From: Rhizobium sp. L51/94
GTDB taxonomy: Bacteria > Pseudomonadota > Alphaproteobacteria > Rhizobiales > Rhizobiaceae
Length of the DNA stretch: 64,000 bases
Direction of reading: 5' to 3'
NCBI RefSeq assembly: GCF_019355555.1
Contig: NZ_CP072141.1
Span: forward strand, 2,908,001 to 2,972,000
Shown: piece after piece, positions 3,463 to 9,441 of the stretch
How the letters are laid out: each line of letters begins with the position of its first letter
Numbering within the stretch: the stretch's first letter is position 1
The notes under the pieces: model-generated
The model's database searches: none
What the model was told of the DNA's origin: nothing
The model's input: the letters and a program-made list of their open reading frames with translations, nothing else
Made by a program: the position numbers and the translations under genes

Positions 3463-4056
3463 TCACCCGAAAACCTCGCCAGGATAGGCACCCCAGATGG
3501 CGGCTTGCCTGATATAGCCGGTGAGCCGCAGCCCGCTCAGATGCACGCGGCACCAGCTGCCGTCGCAGGCCGATAGCCTCAGCAGCACCTTCGGCTGCAG
3601 CACCGCGATTGCGCTCGCCTTGGCATTGGCGGCGACCCGCAGCGGCACGTTGGCCGAGAGCCAGGGGCCGACAATGCCGGTCCGCTGGCCCGATAGCAGC
3701 GAGCCATACATCCACCCGGACGTACCGTCGGAATCCCGCACCTGCCGCCAGCGTCCATATTCCTGGATGACCTCGAGCGGCAGGCCGGGCGCGACATAGA
3801 TGAAGCGCGTCGCATAATCGAGCGAAGGCCCGATGCGCAAGCGCGCCTTGCGCGGCTTCAGCGACACGAAACGCGGCACGGCCAAGCCGCTTTCGCTGCC
3901 GCGCGCAAATCCGGGCGCCAGCACCGGAGCCGGCGAACCAGCGCCTGAAAGCAGAGGTGCCGCGGATGGCAGCGGCTGCGAGAGTGGCGAGACCAGCAGC
4001 ACAATGGCCGAAAAACCGGCGACGGCCATAAGGCTGCAGGACAAGGGCACCCTCAC
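3463..4056 (-). CDS. Exported SH3-domain protein
   Basis: The N terminus (residues 1-30) is a hydrophobic signal or anchor sequence. Two bacterial SH3-like repeats follow: about residues 62-125 (RKARLRIGPSLDY ... GRWRQVRDSDGTSGWMYGSLL) and about 132-190 (VPLRVAANAKASAIAVL ... CDGSWCRVHL). Such domains bind cell-wall components or proteins in the periplasm. The gene overlaps the stop of the upstream IalB-family gene by 4 bp (4053-4056), so the two are probably translationally coupled and both exported. A specific ligand cannot be inferred. Confidence 0.85.
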   Translation of the reverse strand: MRVPLSCSLMAVAGFSAIVLLVSPLSQPLPSAAPLLSGAGSPAPVLAPGFARGSESGLAVPRFVSLKPRKARLRIGPSLDYATRFIYVAPGLPLEVIQEYGRWRQVRDSDGTSGWMYGSLLSGQRTGIVGPWLSANVPLRVAANAKASAIAVLQPKVLLRLSACDGSWCRVHLSGLRLTGYIRQAAIWGAYPGEVFG

Positions 4057-4547
4057 CGGCAGGCCGAGACCTTCTTCAGCGCCGCAGAGATGCCGGCCAG
4101 AGAATAGGTATAGCGGGTCGGAGTGCCGCGTTTCGAGGTGGCGCTGACGGTCATATCGCTGCCACCGCGCATCGCCGCCACCAGATCCGGCTCCTGCGCC
4201 ACGTCCCGCACCCAGGCGGCATTGTCCTTGGACACCATGGCGAAGCGCTTGTCGTCGACCGCAACGGTGATCGGCGCCCCCGGCTTCAGCATATAGCCGC
4301 GCACCGCCTCGGGCACGAAGCCGCCGTCGGCAGAGGGCGACACAAGGAAAAAGTTCTTCCCATGGTCGATTCCGGCAGGCTCCATCTTCGTCGGCATCGA
4401 AAGCGCATAGCAGACCGTCCCAGACTTCGCCGCATAGGAATAGACGCCCCAGTCATCGAACTGCTGGATCCGGCTAGGCTCGGCAAACGCCGCGGCAGAA
4501 GAGGCGACAAGGGCGGCGACGGCGAAAATGGGGAGTTTTGCGGGCAT
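4053..4547 (-). CDS. Invasion-associated locus B (IalB) family protein
   Basis: A 164-aa protein with a clear Sec signal peptide (about residues 1-22, cleaved near AFAEPS), followed by the IalB-type domain (DDWGVYSYAAKSGTVCYALS, then FFLVSP, then a lysine-terminated GSDMTVSATSKRGT stretch). Two cysteines, one in the first strand and one near the C terminus, could pair. In Bartonella IalB is linked to erythrocyte invasion. In free-living rhizobia the family is common and the role is unclear, probably envelope-related. It is the first gene of a two-gene unit with the SH3 protein, whose start overlaps its stop. Confidence 0.85.
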   Translation of the reverse strand: MPAKLPIFAVAALVASSAAAFAEPSRIQQFDDWGVYSYAAKSGTVCYALSMPTKMEPAGIDHGKNFFLVSPSADGGFVPEAVRGYMLKPGAPITVAVDDKRFAMVSKDNAAWVRDVAQEPDLVAAMRGGSDMTVSATSKRGTPTRYTYSLAGISAALKKVSACR

Positions 4548-4733
4548 GATATTCCAGACGGGTTTTGGACAAACTCAGGCCGGATTTCGGAACATTTCCG
4601 GCCGCGCGAAGGCCCAATTGGAGCCCGTCGAGGGTTACCGGGAGGTTAATGGGGTGGTTACGATATTGTGATGGGGGGGTGTGAGATCGGATCTACCGCC
4701 TAAGGCAAGAACCGGCGCAGGCAACTTCCGGAG

Positions 4734-5219
4734 CTATTTCCGACTGCGTCTGATAACATCACAAAATACTTCATCATCCGACTGTATATGAGGAGAAAGA
4801 ACGTCTAGGCAGGATTTGAGCCTAGCTTGCAATGAATCATTTTTCCTTGGAGTTTCTGAATAGTTGGAAATCTGCCGAACTGATTTGATAGAAAGCAACT
4901 GCAGCAACACTCGAACGCCCTTTTTATCCGTCAGCCCTACGCTACGGGCGTCATAAGATCCTGGAAACCCAGCCAACTCGGGAAAAAGCTCTCCCTGTAA
5001 GGTACGGTTTGTCTTAGTTTGCCTCGCCTCGACATCGCTTAGCATGCGCCTCAAGGCCATTGTTTCAAGCTTCCGCGACTCTGCAATGATTAGATTGGAA
5101 TGCCTAACTCTCAATTCACGGATAACTTCTTCGTATGTATACTGACCTTTAAGGCCAAGTTCGTGCGAAATATTTCTAAGAGCGCCGCGCAAGTTCATTT
5201 CGTCAAACTCCATTGGCAC
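4734..5219 (-). CDS. Hypothetical protein in a lower-GC patch, 161 aa
   Basis: An open frame in a stretch (about 4.7-5.5 kb) with visibly lower GC and more A/T-ending codons than its neighbours, which suggests later acquisition. The frame can start at GTG 5219 or ATG 5213; no strong ribosome binding site is visible. The protein is charged and mostly helical, with no signal peptide or membrane segment. It has no motif I recognise; the most distinctive piece is LFPELAGFPGSYDARSVG followed by a leucine-rich helix. No integrase or repeat borders it. Function unknown. Confidence 0.55.
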   Translation of the reverse strand: MPMEFDEMNLRGALRNISHELGLKGQYTYEEVIRELRVRHSNLIIAESRKLETMALRRMLSDVEARQTKTNRTLQGELFPELAGFPGSYDARSVGLTDKKGVRVLLQLLSIKSVRQISNYSETPRKNDSLQARLKSCLDVLSPHIQSDDEVFCDVIRRSRK

Positions 5220-5499
5220 GCAAGACGAATCATAAGATCAAAAGGTGAACTTAAAAACCAAGACAGTCAACCATACTACAAAATAGAGTCTGAGCATCAC
5301 GGCCATATTGGAGTATAAGAAACTGATACAACGGCGCATATATAGAATTGCCACCAAACAGATCAAATCTTGCATGTAGCGTTAAGCTTCGAAATGCGAT
5401 CGCGGCCGCGTATCGTCACACTCAAAAACTACTCGATTTCTGGAAAAGAAGACAACGGTTAAAGATTTTCCCGTCTATTTTGGCGCCTATACGAGGTCA

Positions 5500-7093: not shown

Positions 7094-7140
7094 CCCCCCT
7101 CTGTCAGCTGCGCTGACATCTCCCCCACAAGTGGGGAGAT
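7094..7140 (-). repeat. RIME-like palindromic element
   Basis: Reverse-orientation copy: a CTGTCAGC...GCTGACAT hairpin followed by the ATCTCCCCCAC...GTGGGGAGAT hairpin. It is paired with an inverted copy at 7208-7256, about 70 bp away, downstream of both the cold-shock gene and dusA. Confidence 0.85.
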
Positions 7141-7207
7141 TATTCTTTTCCCTTGCGGACCCTGGCTTTCGGCTGATCTTCGTCTGGCGGGCTGACCGTT
7201 CCGCCCA

Positions 7208-7256
7208 CTCTCCCCCCTTGTGGGGGAGATGTCCCGCAGGGACAGAGGGGGGAGAT
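7208..7256 (+). repeat. RIME-like palindromic element
   Basis: Forward-orientation copy: CTCCCCCCTTGTGGGGGAG followed by a GTCCC-GCA-GGGAC hairpin. It faces the copy at 7094-7140, together forming a composite inverted pair just beyond the stop codon of dusA. Confidence 0.85.
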
Positions 7257-7288: not shown

Positions 7289-8302
7289 TCAGGCCGAAAG
7301 CGCCGTCGGCTCGGCGGGCGAGAAATCCACGGCGGCAAAGGCGGCGGTGATGACCTCCGGCCCTGCGCCCGGCTTGGCCGCATCGCTCGACAGGATCTGC
7401 CGGAACCGTCTCGCCCCGGTCATGCCCGAAAACAACCCGATCATATGGCGCGTCACCTGCTGCAATCGTCCGCCACCGGCGATGTGGGCGCCGGCATATG
7501 TCATCATCGTATCGCGCACCGCCATCCAGTCTGGCGCACAAAAAGGCTTGCCATAGATGCGGTGGTCGACATCGGCGAGAACCGCCGTATCGCCATAAGG
7601 CGCCCTGCCCAGCATGACGCCATCCACATGGCGCAGGTGCATCTCTGCCTCGTCGAGCGTCTTGATGCCACCGTTGATGCCGATGAACACATCCGGAAAG
7701 CGCTGCTTCATGCGGTAGACGAAGTCATAGTCGAGCGGCGGGATATCGCGGTTTTCCTTCGGCGACAGGCCCTTCAGCCAGGCTTTTCGCGCATGGATCC
7801 AGATGGCGTCGGCACCGGCGTCGAGCACCCGCACCATCAGGTCCGGCAGCGCCACCTCGGGGTCCTGCTCGTCGACGCCGATCCGGCATTTCACCGTCAC
7901 CGGCAAGTCTGTCACCGCCTTCATCGCCGCCACGGCAGAGGCAACAACATCCGGCGTCAGCATCAGGCAAGCGCCGAACGTGCCGGACTGCACCCGGTCC
8001 GAAGGGCAGCCGACATTCAGGTTGATCTCGTCATAGCGGTAATCGGCGGCAATCCGCACCGCCTCGGCAAGCTTGCCCGCATCCGAGCCGCCAACCTGCA
8101 GCGCCACCGGATGCTCCTCGGCATGATGCCCGAGCAGCCTGTCACGCGGCCCATGGATGATAGCATCCGCCACCACCATCTCCGTATAAAGCAACGCTTC
8201 CCGGCTGATCTGCCGATGCAAAAACCGACAATGCCGATCCGTCCAGTCGATCATAGGTGCGACGGCGAAGACTTTTTCGCCTTTAAGATATTGATTTGTC
8301 AA
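7289..8302 (-). CDS. dusA: tRNA-dihydrouridine(20/20a) synthase DusA, with element-supplied N terminus
   Basis: An FMN-dependent enzyme that reduces U20/U20a in the tRNA D-loop. Family motifs are VFAVAPMIDWTDRHCR at the N terminus, ALQVGGSD, INLNVGCPSDRVQSGTFGAC (the cysteine of NVGCPS is the expected catalytic acid), VTVKCRIGVD and INGGI. The first residues come from an integrated element: the native 5' end lies 1.08 kb away at 9323-9441. The frame is open to a GTG at 8521, but that would add about 73 non-family residues. A TTG at 8302, just after a GGAAAA sequence, gives 337 aa, the normal family length, so I prefer it. The real start needs experimental mapping. Confidence 0.88.
   Translation of the reverse strand: MTNQYLKGEKVFAVAPMIDWTDRHCRFLHRQISREALLYTEMVVADAIIHGPRDRLLGHHAEEHPVALQVGGSDAGKLAEAVRIAADYRYDEINLNVGCPSDRVQSGTFGACLMLTPDVVASAVAAMKAVTDLPVTVKCRIGVDEQDPEVALPDLMVRVLDAGADAIWIHARKAWLKGLSPKENRDIPPLDYDFVYRMKQRFPDVFIGINGGIKTLDEAEMHLRHVDGVMLGRAPYGDTAVLADVDHRIYGKPFCAPDWMAVRDTMMTYAGAHIAGGGRLQQVTRHMIGLFSGMTGARRFRQILSSDAAKPGAGPEVITAAFAAVDFSPAEPTALSA
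8243..8281 (+). repeat. Attachment-site repeat, dusA-proximal copy
   Basis: A 39-bp sequence matching 9322-9360 at 34 of 39 positions. It encodes the conserved FAVAPMID region near the DusA N terminus. The two copies bound the foreign segment and mark the recombination crossover. Confidence 0.8.
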
Positions 8303-8310
8303 TGTTTTTC

Positions 8311-8467
8311 CAACTGCACCACGCAGGACCACGCTGCGCCACGGCCATTTTGGGCCACTCTCTACCACGCGCAACCATTTGAATCCATTGGCAGTGACGC
8401 TGGGTAACTTTTGAACTGCACCAAGAACTGCACCACAGCTGCACCAATATTTTCGCCAACTGCACCA
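8311..8467 (+). repeat. Left array of TGCACCA repeats (arm-type site candidates)
   Basis: Five direct copies of an 11-mer close to CAACTGCACCA at 8311-8321, 8413-8423, 8425-8435, 8436-8446 and 8457-8467. The start-to-start spacings 12, 11 and 21 bp are close to whole helical turns, as expected for sites bound cooperatively on one DNA face. By analogy with phage integration they could be integrase or excisionase arm sites. Confidence 0.7.
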
Positions 8468-8570
8468 TTCGTCCAGTCTATTCAACGGATTGTTGAATAG
8501 TGGATTCCCGGTCTTGTACACTCACCGCTGACACCAACAGACGCGGCCACGAGCCGCCTAGGAAAGGAAT

Positions 8571-9116
8571 GTGAACGATATAATTACCCTCTGCGGGTCG
8601 GCGCGGTTCGAAAGGCTGTTCAAGGCTTGGAACGAAGCGCTGACACTCGCGGGGCACACGGTGTTCTCTGTCGCGGTCTACCCAAGCGACAAATCCGGGG
8701 TTAAGCAGTGGTACTCTGATGATCAGAAAGCTGACCTCGATGCAGCCCACCTCCGTAAGATCGCGGCGAGTGACTCGATTTTCGTTCTTAATATGTACGG
8801 GTACATCGGCTCATCGACGCTAGGCGAAATAGAGCACGCAAAACGTCTCGGTAAGAAAATCTACTTCTTGGAATCGTGGAAGGCGGGCAACGGGGTGTGT
8901 GACATGCACCATGAGTGGCTGCGCGACGACATGGAGTTGGACGGATTGCCAAGGTGCTCAGCCTCGCCCATCGACACTATGACATCACCCCACGACCCGG
9001 CGATCTTCTCTCCTTGGAGCAGTGACCTGCTCGGCCCGGGTGGGGCAAAGCGCTCGTCCCTGGTTAACCTCACCAAAGCGGCGGAACGCCCAACTGCACC
9101 AAGCTCAGAAGCCTGA
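8571..9116 (+). CDS. Nucleoside 2-deoxyribosyltransferase-like protein (element cargo)
   Basis: A 181-aa frame starting at GTG 8571 behind AGGAAAGGA (8560-8568). The N-terminal two-thirds has the fold signature of phage-type nucleoside deoxyribosyltransferase-like proteins: LCGSARF at the start, ADLDAAHLRKIAASDSIFVLN in the middle, then STLGEIEHAKRLGKKIYFLE. This family uses or binds nucleotide-sugar-like ligands, and many members on phages are of unknown role. The C-terminal 60 residues are low in family features. A TGCACCA repeat (9091-9101) lies within its 3' end. It is the only gene inside the dusA element. Confidence 0.75.
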   Translation: MNDIITLCGSARFERLFKAWNEALTLAGHTVFSVAVYPSDKSGVKQWYSDDQKADLDAAHLRKIAASDSIFVLNMYGYIGSSTLGEIEHAKRLGKKIYFLESWKAGNGVCDMHHEWLRDDMELDGLPRCSASPIDTMTSPHDPAIFSPWSSDLLGPGGAKRSSLVNLTKAAERPTAPSSEA

Positions 9117-9266
9117 GTAGCGCCCCATTGCGACACTCCCCCCAGCGGGCAGGTTTTCAGCCACTGCCCGCTAACCCGCAGACATTCCCCGCCACGCCCA
9201 GCCCCGCGTCACCCTTGGTTGAATCTGCACCAGTCGTTTAGCACAAATTGCACCAAAACTGCACCA
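9091..9266 (+). repeat. Right array of TGCACCA repeats (arm-type site candidates)
   Basis: Four direct copies, at 9091-9101, 9222-9232, 9245-9255 and 9256-9266, all in the same orientation as the left array. The last three lie within 100 bp of the dusA-side junction at 9322. Spacings are 23 and 11 bp, again near whole helical turns. Confidence 0.65.
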
Positions 9267-9306
9267 TCGACCTTTTGAAAATAAAGAGACGAATGATTTC
9301 AATAGC

Positions 9307-9441
9307 TTAAAAGCGCGCTGTACAGTCGATCATGGGGGCGACGGCGAAGATTTTTCCGCCGGATGCATAGGGCGACGCTGTCGGCACGGGCGCCGTGTAG
9401 GTGGATGGGGAATTCATTGGCATTTGGTTTGGGATCTTCAT
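9307..9441 (-). pseudogene. Displaced 5' fragment of dusA
   Basis: From the ATG at 9439-9441 this fragment encodes MKIPNQMPMNSPSTY, then ASGGKIFAVAPMID, which matches the DusA N terminus. It then diverges into CTARF and stops. The gene was therefore cut at the attachment core. Its original promoter should lie upstream (9442-9500). The fragment alone cannot be functional. Confidence 0.75.
9322..9360 (+). repeat. Attachment-site repeat, distal copy
   Basis: Partner of 8243-8281 with five mismatches in 39 bp. It carries the native version of the FAVAPMID coding sequence, continuous with the original dusA start upstream. Confidence 0.8.

Follow-up and report, generated by a model that had tools for sequence, protein, structure and literature searches.

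In Rhizobium sp. L51/94, dusA is interrupted by a 1,079-bp element that is likely to be a non-autonomous integrative element and, more specifically, a mini-satellite of temperate phages with dusA as their integration site. Because integrase-less elements with the same ends and other cargo recur across genera, the element in the window (the whole 64,000-nucleotide stretch analysed, whose numbering is used throughout) is, as judged from sequence, not a one-off decayed island. One relative, on the phage contig L396, lies within an attP beside an integrase with matching sites, and movement through borrowed phage machinery is therefore probable for these mini-elements; movement itself was not seen, nor was a rhizobial helper identified. 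The earlier note had offered two readings, of which mobilization by an integrase in trans is much better supported, by the ends conserved across genera and by L396, and a decayed island less so.

The split dusA gene and its insert

The description of dusA as cut near its start by a repeat-bordered segment of about 1.08 kb is borne out. The core is a direct repeat of 41 nt (identity, 36/41) with a spacing of 1,079, of which the previously described 39-bp repeat (34/39) is the inner part, and the 25-base core pattern, with up to three mismatches allowed, occurs at these two places only in the whole 6.05-Mb genome. The native start survives, as had been stated, and when the flanks are fused at the core a single uninterrupted 357-aa DusA frame results at all three join points tried. 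The window protein is 76–80% identical to DusA of 36 same-genus genomes. The insertion would supply dusA with a replacement 5′ end and thereby keep the host gene in frame; the new start codon is TTG in the window versus ATG in relatives, and the new N termini of the window and its relatives read MTNQYL, MRNQYL, MKNQYL or MKNQYH. The features are as follows.

7289–8281, minus strand: body of dusA (tRNA-dihydrouridine synthase A), its 5′ end swapped for element sequence (Pfam Dus, 1.1e-73)
8241–8281, no strand: left copy of the att core repeat, on the side of the dusA body, 36/41 identical to 9320–9360
8282–8302, minus strand: element-supplied new DusA N terminus (from sequence; start-codon position conserved in relatives)
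8284–8296, minus strand: site that fits the IHF consensus, WATCAANNNNTTR (conserved in position in G498 and Ferirhizobium litorale; absent from G303, G611 and L396)
8315–8467, plus strand: array of TGCACCA copies in the left arm, at 8315, 8417, 8429, 8440 and 8461, which are putative arm-type sites for an integrase (motif counts; positions common to relatives)
8372–8384, minus strand: IHF-like site with one mismatch, CAACCATTTGAAT, within a conserved block (motif scan; alignment)
8479–8499, no strand: operator-like perfect inverted repeat TATTCAACGGATTGTTGAATA, that is, TATTCAAC-N5-GTTGAATA, upstream of the cargo gene (pattern scan)
8538–8567, plus strand: leader containing a short GC stem, followed by Shine–Dalgarno-like AGGAAAGGA (CAGACGCGGCCACGAGCCGCCTAGGAAAGG) (pattern search)
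8571–9116, plus strand: cargo gene, 181 aa (ORF; weak phrog_355 match, E 0.036)
9095–9266, plus strand: putative right-arm sites, TGCACCA at 9095, 9226, 9249 and 9260 (motif counts; spacing matches relatives)
9297–9309, plus strand: IHF-like site with one mismatch, TTTCAATAGCTTA, at −63 from the right end (motif scan; relatives)
9320–9360, no strand: right core repeat (native dusA side), direct-repeat partner of 8241–8281
9320–9441, minus strand: displaced native dusA start, MKIPNQ...KIFAVAPMIDC (from sequence; flank-join test)

The claim of a single cargo gene without an integrase also holds: the 181-aa frame is the only notable ORF between the repeats, and ORF, Pfam and PHROG searches gave it no integrase-like or replication-gene similarity. 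The 1,038-bp interior contains ten copies of TGCACCA on the plus strand, an anatomy far beyond chance (mean 0.15 and largest count 3 in 2,000 dinucleotide shuffles, in none of which did the commonest 7-mer exceed five copies). With a core, arm-type sites on both sides and IHF-like sites (the IHF consensus used being WATCAANNNNTTR), the element appears, from sequence alone, to have the full anatomy of an attP.

The inverted repeat is the sole match in the window at up to three mismatches (mean 0.06 in shuffles, 6 of 100 of which had one) and recurs in G498, F. litorale, G611, L396, G423 (one mismatch) and Klebsiella phage YMC16/01/N133. Among 394 family genomes, three have the leader pattern, again at up to three mismatches: the window genome, G498 and G423. 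Fold z-scores for the leader stem were weak (−0.36 to −0.98), and it was rejected as a strong RNA structure; a promoter scan found no sigma-70-type promoters. An element that targets a tRNA gene and has other arm repeats shares the operator and leader module.

Matching the cargo gene against Pfam and PADLOC gave nothing at E 0.1. Its N-terminal ~105 aa are related to short proteins with TLCGS...GGYIGSST and perhaps form a nucleoside 2-deoxyribosyltransferase- or SLOG-like domain, a function that is inferred. The protein is 40–47% identical to three small plasmid-borne proteins, and N-terminal matches at 31–48% identity occur in eight phage records and in plasmids (20 listed of 33). A single-sequence fold was of low confidence (pLDDT 40). 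The earlier note had proposed a search for this same gene in relatives; none was found in the 99 other genomes searched, and none was confirmed among genome contigs.

Related elements in Rhizobiaceae

Similar repeats in dusA of relatives, for which the earlier note had also proposed a search, were found outside the genus. Four further dusA mini-elements of 1.05–2.1 kb, in three other Rhizobiaceae genera, have shared ends and different or reshuffled cargo, and tblastn found no dusA-type integrase or remnant of one in the five mapped Rhizobiaceae mini-element loci. In 394 family genomes, scored for two candidates each, the left end extends well past the dusA core in the window genome, G498, G306 (F. 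litorale), G303, G326 and G405; G611 was obtained from a set of 39 genomes belonging to a single genus. A scan of genome contigs for pairs of arm sites, which was not aimed at dusA, returned at least 117 loci, and the one locus beside dusA among the 117 listed was the integrase-less mini-element of F. litorale. In all four members with intact right ends, the window included (1,079 to 2,105 bp), right-arm sites lie at −134, −111 and −100 and an IHF-like site at −63; the phage-borne L396 member keeps the sites at −111 and −100. These geometry counts exclude G326, which runs off its contig end, and G405, for which no right end is available (no second core in 12 kb); G303, which has lost its right arms, was left out of the right-arm count, and G175 was not counted as a separate case.

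The cargo genes are reshuffled among these elements. A 205-aa gene is common to G498, G303 and G611, an MtlR-like gene occurs in F. litorale and G611, and several genes are of phage type (a DNA methylase, phrog_67; the MtlR-like gene, phrog_22031; and a gene in G423, phrog_289). The methylase of F. litorale is interrupted. The left ends of G303 and G611 are 91% identical, compared with 75% for dusA; in eight of ten pairs left-end similarity exceeds that of dusA, usually by a margin of a few points, and in the other two (G498–G611 and F. litorale–G611) it falls short. The apparent signal of horizontal transfer is therefore uneven.

Insertion in this genus would have been refuted by relatives that show the same layout as ancestral, with no empty site anywhere; the layout is present in none of 36 same-genus dusA loci, each viewed with 2.4 to about 18 kb of upstream DNA. 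A second core match in L113 (23/33, at 10 kb) looks like chance. One same-genus locus, G007, has a different, decayed 3.9-kb integrase island in dusA with a 71-aa integrase remnant, and G001 has an integrase fragment. Decayed dusA islands thus exist in the genus, and the window element could be another: an integrase-bearing island that has lost its integrase and most of its genes, keeping attL and attR and unable to move by itself. The definition of a CIME, a cis-mobilizable element that retains attL and attR and has lost its integration and transfer genes (PMC5704250, as far as its available text goes), fits literally, because the element retains both ends and neither ORF nor Pfam results show integration or transfer genes. 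The right end of G303 is likewise degraded. However, independent deletions would be unlikely either to leave the same operator–cargo junction beside shared arm sites across several genera or to redistribute whole cargo genes among them; moreover, the right-arm geometry is constant to the base pair, and the arm sites of the G007 island are quite different. We therefore consider a CIME-like relic unlikely, without dismissing it.

A phage-borne member and candidate helpers

The metagenomic contig L396, from IMGVR_UViG_3300042393_000897, carries a 2.44-kb member inside a phage attP, adjoining the integrase, in the order core, mini-element left end, methylase, HNH gene, mini-element right end, core, CTGCACCA sites and integrase. 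The integrase gene is thus preceded by the same CTGCACCA arm sites as the mini-elements have, and the arrangement is the product that would be expected from recombination between a mini-element attP and a phage attP. It is a single such contig, its host is unknown and its integrase is only partial (279 aa to the locus edge). Without the core, the window left end aligns to the L396 mini-element left end with a score of 118 (best of 300 shuffles, 34), to the L396 phage attP arm with 50 (best, 43) and to the attP arm of Klebsiella phage YMC16/01/N133 with 54 (best, 31); scores against 32 left ends of other dusA-integrase islands were 34 or below. Support is weaker for the window right end (1 of 300 shuffles as good for the Klebsiella phage and 9 of 300 for the L396 phage arm), and the coreless left ends of G611 and G303 show no more than a marginal match to the Klebsiella phage (with 2 and 1 of 300 shuffles, respectively, doing as well). 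In the 16.9 kb examined, the Klebsiella phage has a single core in an empty attP between integrase and terminase, and one palindrome copy before a methyltransferase gene. Its arm sites are mostly TGCACA; the attP layout and the palindrome are shared with the mini-elements. An HTH protein is annotated beside the excisionase gene of this phage.

It could be argued from L396, which holds the block inside its attP, that such blocks are a normal internal, att-flanked part of a phage that stays in dusA after the phage excises and has no separate satellite life; the phage-type cargo genes, and the same palindrome before the own methyltransferase gene of the Klebsiella phage, point the same way. Evidence against this explanation is provided by the empty attP of that related phage, by the absence of two cores from all 85 other viral or phage integrase loci (many of them cut short upstream at contig ends) and by the occurrence of mini-elements without phage structural genes in four genera, and we regard it as improbable. 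The possibility that part of dusA was duplicated by accident and an unrelated gene inserted, which has only the duplicated fragment in its favour, is refuted by the homologous ends with other cargo in relatives, the arm-site arrays and the phage-borne member, and retains almost no credibility.

The preferred reading, a phage-dependent mini-satellite, calls for an integrase from elsewhere. The earlier note had suggested looking for a dusA-type integrase in this genome, and two queries found none. The 14 integrase-family loci of the window genome were rejected as helpers, matching dusA-type integrases at best at 24% over 161 aa (E 4e-6) and the L396 integrase at best at E 2.0, which is no match. 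None of the 30 integrase loci returned for 394 family genomes has a CTGCACCA array at the core. L445 and L446 have a single TGCACCA/TGGTGCA near the core, and no dusA core was seen in L450 or L460. Repeats of the GTGCAC/TTGCAC type, related to but not identical with CTGCACCA, occur at eight family loci (L451–L458) that belong to a second integrase subfamily.

In viral contigs, the right-end, leader and right-arm patterns had no matches. A three-site arm scan of these contigs gave 45 stretches, among which tblastn found no dusA-type integrase; 15 were read base by base, most of which resemble coding repeats by eye, with L059 and L095 containing noncoding-looking arrays, and the remainder were judged on spacing only. 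A two-site scan gave at least 120 stretches, and L396 was the only match to the integrase query (26%) among the 97 new two-site loci listed. Upstream DNA was scanned for 45 viral integrase loci, and L497 alone has a dusA-like core flanked on each side by CTGCACCA; copies of the GGTGCACC type occur in L482, and L468 has two scattered matches. Distant DNA searches returned nothing for the window ends in phages or for the left end in plasmids. Two further candidates were rejected: a right-arm match in G457 looks like coding sequence, and L293, which lacks arm sites, looks like a chance match.

Proposed mobilization and known systems

We hypothesize that a phage integrase acting in trans, presumably with the phage excisionase, can cut the element out of or into the dusA site. 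This is inferred from the complete attP that the element carries (core, IHF-like and arm-type sites), on which such an integrase could act. The element could also recombine with the attP of a helper phage, or leave a phage–mini-element tandem jointly with the phage, and in either way be carried within the phage genome; L396 would be the product of such an event. The palindrome-bearing promoter-like module before the cargo gene is also present in phages of this kind, and by inference cargo expression may depend on the regulatory state of the phage. Integrase action on the mini-element, transfer, the ligand of the operator and the role of the cargo are all inferred.

As a broader proposal, which we hold to be evenly balanced, these elements may form a distinct mobile class of ‘attP cassettes’, minimal satellites that consist of no more than an attachment site of phage type, a promoter module that responds to the phage and between one and three exchangeable genes. 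They would be mobilized in trans by phage integrases and pass from one bacterium to another in a helper attP, with the cargo module re-used with att ends of differing specificity, for dusA and for tRNA. Should the mini-elements be mobilized in trans, phage integrases would have MITE-like parasites, and single genes could spread between genera as 1–2-kb packets, possibly under phage control and without destruction of the target gene. Integrase-less elements escape searches because islands and satellites are usually found through their integrase, and the published survey of dusA islands was built on it (PMC4482086).

In that survey, in so far as its text was accessible, the integrase is the only gene common to all 94 dusA-specific islands, which range from 4,758 to 184,808 bp. 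Like these islands with DusA-associated integrases, the mini-elements insert near the 5′ end of dusA, use imperfect repeats as att sites and supply a new 5′ end, and the window element meets this description; unlike them, they are only 1.05–2.5 kb long and have no integrase (PMC4482086). They share with CIMEs, in the available part of that account, the occurrence of tandems (PMC5704250), G611 adjoining dusA-island-like sequence and L396 lying inside a phage attP; they differ in forming a family with constant arm geometry, a common promoter-like module, exchangeable cargo and a link to phages rather than ICEs. Their inferred helper dependence, and a member embedded in a phage, recall phage satellites such as helper-embedded PICIs (PMC10111431), for which doubled and precisely placed attP motifs are also described (PMC10111431), and PICMIs (PMC10803314). 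Those satellites, from the portions of both papers at hand, usually encode an integrase, whereas the mini-elements have nothing beyond att DNA, cargo and an operator-like module, and the window element shows neither an integrase nor replication genes such as a PICI-like satellite would have. Finally, like CALINs and MITEs, they seem to be recombination substrates without an enzyme of their own, mobilized in trans; CALINs and MITEs, in the excerpted account, depend on integron integrases or transposases (PMC11389934), whereas the substrate here is a phage attP with its arm sites.

The insert in dusA

The minus-strand dusA of the window, the body of which is a clear Dus protein, is interrupted by a 1,079-bp insert flanked by 41-bp direct repeats (36/41 identical), bearing out the earlier note, which had a segment between repeats splitting the gene. 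Joining the flanks across this core, the att-type direct repeat, gives one 357-amino-acid frame composed of the displaced native start and the body; the left end of the insert also supplies a new DusA start. The core pattern is absent elsewhere in the 6.05-Mb window genome (up to three mismatches). Downstream of dusA (7115-7233) is a 25-nt inverted repeat (GACATCTCCCCCACAAGTGGGGAGA), 96% complementary, with 69 nt between its arms.

The same note described one cargo gene and no integrase, and this also holds: we found a single likely gene (8571-9116), and no integrase gene at the spot where dusA islands carry one. The insert contains ten plus-strand copies of TGCACCA, a putative integrase arm-type site, whereas 2,000 dinucleotide shuffles averaged 0.15 copies, with a maximum of 3. 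Eight are in the two ends, and adjacent copies within clusters are spaced by 11, 12, 21 or 23 bp. Both arms have IHF-like sites, called against the IHF consensus.

Sites in the window insert
8284-8296, IHF-like site, exact match to the consensus
8372-8384, IHF-like site, one mismatch
8905, + strand, TGCACCA inside the cargo gene
9095, + strand, TGCACCA at the end of the cargo gene
9297-9309, IHF-like site, one mismatch

A perfect palindrome (TATTCAAC-N5-GTTGAATA) lies upstream of the cargo gene, and the leader of that gene contains a GC stem and AGGAAAGGA. Judged from these predicted sites, the layout is that of a phage attP split into two halves by integration.

A family with conserved ends and changing cargo

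An arm-pair scan of genome contigs that was not aimed at dusA returned at least 117 loci; one dusA-adjacent locus among the 117 matches listed is another dusA element without an integrase, from Ferirhizobium litorale (Rhizobiaceae). Searching 394 family genomes with the window left end recovered this element again (as G306) and added those of genomes G498, G303, G326 and G405; G611 was added from 39 genomes of the genus of G498. Five of these mini-elements have both ends mapped and span four genera; the G326 element runs off its contig and no right end was identified for that of G405. No dusA-type integrase was found by tblastn in the examined loci. Directly after the G611 mini-element is the apparent left end of a different dusA island, tandem or remnant (L565, 1534-3600), in which no integrase was detectable.

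Mini-elements with both ends mapped: length and cargo
Window element: 1,079 bp; possibly a nucleoside-deoxyribosyltransferase/SLOG-like protein (weak)
G498: 1,500 bp; 89-aa gene and 205-aa gene
G303: 1,049 bp; 205-aa gene
F. litorale: 2,105 bp; interrupted DNA methylase and MtlR-like gene
G611: 1,949 bp; 205-aa gene and MtlR-like gene together

All four members with intact right ends have right-arm sites at -134, -111 and -100 and an IHF-like site at -63; on the left, arm sites are found near 76, 179 and 191, with an IHF-like site at 133. With up to one mismatch, 4 of 314 family genomes have the right-arm pair; in three it belongs to a mini-element, and the fourth, G457, was rejected because its match looks like coding sequence. 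Left ends are more alike than dusA in 8 of 10 pairs, mostly by a few points, and less alike in the other 2; those of G303 and G611 are 91% identical, their dusA genes 75%. Cargo sharing and the G303–G611 pair argue for transfer between genera, as inferred from sequence; the remaining pairs are neutral.

The elements of G498, F. litorale and G611 share the palindrome, and G423 has it with one mismatch. Of 394 family genomes, three have the leader when three mismatches are allowed (the window genome, G498 and G423), and G611, outside that sample, has a variant. In G423, a tRNA gene is the site of a 1,272-bp element (L329, 7500-8789; repeat at 7500 and 8772) in which no integrase was seen. It has a YpsA/SLOG-family cargo gene, the operator/leader module of the window element and an exact IHF-consensus match. 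Its arm repeats differ (TGTTGGTA, 12 bp apart, at both ends); thus one cargo module occurs with two kinds of att ends.

dusA loci and integrases in relatives

The earlier note named an ancestral split dusA in relatives as a refutation; this layout was seen in none of 36 same-genus dusA loci, compared up to 18 kb upstream (four were shorter, down to 2.4 kb). A different island, 3.9 kb long and with an integrase remnant of 71 aa, occupies the dusA locus of G007, and G001 has an integrase fragment. At least one CTGCACCA pair occurs in 19 of 148 genus genomes; the three pairs of the window element occur only in the window genome and the conspecific G175, which does not count as an independent case, being identical over 3,501 bp.

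A 71-aa query detected dusA-type integrases or fragments in 10 of 150 relatives; among the 394 family genomes, 33 had them at E up to 1e-30. These searches, which the earlier note had suggested for the window genome, found none there or in G303, G306, G326, G405, G423 and G498. Arm sites of the dusA-type integrase loci that were read differ from CTGCACCA, and eight loci of a second integrase subfamily have GTGCAC/TTGCAC-type repeats. No helper with mini-element arm sites was found in Rhizobiaceae. On Mesorhizobium sp. AR10 plasmid pMspAR10a (L576), a dusA-type integrase is preceded by a dusA-like core and adjoins a Fic-family gene, not dusA. In the window genome, tyrosine recombinase genes lie three in a row at two places (G000:C3:30747-33201: L004, L008 and L011; G000:C5:155599-159435: L006, L007 and L009), resembling 'recombinase in trio' elements, and C3 and C5 also have two single integrases with equal scores (L002 and L003).

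A phage contig and probable mobilisation in trans

A palindrome search of 577 loci singled out L396, which covers 5.8 kb of a viral contig of 34.6 kb; the 23 other palindrome loci are copies of mini-element loci. In the minus direction, the order in L396 is a core, a mini-element left end (arm sites at 181, 193 and 216; IHF-like at 135), the palindrome, an intact DNA methylase (347 aa; 70% identical to that of the F. litorale element), a convergent HNH gene, a right end (arm sites at -111 and -100; IHF-like at -63), a core, CTGCACCA sites and an integrase. This arrangement is what would be expected if a mini-element circle had recombined with a phage attP, or if a phage–mini-element tandem had been excised jointly. 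An extra one-mismatch palindrome precedes a phage ORF adjoining the terminase small subunit gene. Beside the mini-element (3509-5300), a near-perfect palindrome ahead of small ORFs (230, 144, 98 and 71 aa), ending at the phage P arm, is possibly a second phage-regulated cassette.

The L396 integrase (partial, 279 aa) is 64.5% identical to that of Klebsiella phage YMC16/01/N133 (Casjensviridae), and the terminase small subunit 60% (143 residues). The attachment site of the Klebsiella phage is empty, with only one core between integrase and terminase, and the one palindrome in the first 16.9 kb of this phage precedes a methyltransferase gene. When the core is excluded, scores of the window left end are 118 for the L396 mini-element left end, 50 for the L396 phage arm and 54 for that of the Klebsiella phage, in each case above all 300 mononucleotide shuffles; left ends of 32 other dusA-integrase islands score 16-34. 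The G611 and G303 left ends clearly match both L396 arms and are marginal against the Klebsiella phage (2 and 1 of 300 shuffles as good). Right-end matches are weaker: 1 of 300 shuffles was as good for window against Klebsiella phage, 9 for window against the L396 phage arm, 3 for G303 against Klebsiella phage and 0 for the remainder. Recurring CTGCACCA arrays, mostly 10-12 bp apart with inverted copies, also occur in viral contigs and in Nitrospirae, Geobacter and other MAGs (L059, L065, L067, L073, L081, L088, L091, L192, L212, L238 and L256); the one array read, in L059, looks noncoding, and none of the eleven loci has a dusA match.

We conclude that the window element is probably mobilised in trans by a phage integrase. 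The anatomy, the family, the lack of a dusA-type integrase, the nesting in a phage attP and the empty attP of a related phage are observed; integrase action, transfer and regulator binding have not been demonstrated. Counting against mobilisation are the lost right arms of G303, the interrupted F. litorale methylase, the uneven divergence of left ends and dusA, the absence of any relative of the window cargo gene in 99 other genomes searched and the arms of the Klebsiella phage, which are mostly TGCACA; the main phage link rests on one contig, the integrase of which is known only in part.

Among the matches listed from the open-licence literature, mostly titles and the starts of abstracts, we found no such mini-element family. 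The integrase is reported as the only gene common to 94 dusA islands of 4.8-185 kb (PMC4482086), and CIMEs by definition have lost integration and transfer genes and kept attL and attR (PMC5704250). Dehalococcoides is reported to have 15 ssrA islands that lack integration modules (PMC3146451). In helper-embedded PICIs, attP motifs are doubled and placed precisely (PMC10111431), and CALINs and MITEs are listed among the hitchers that are mobilised in trans (PMC11389934).
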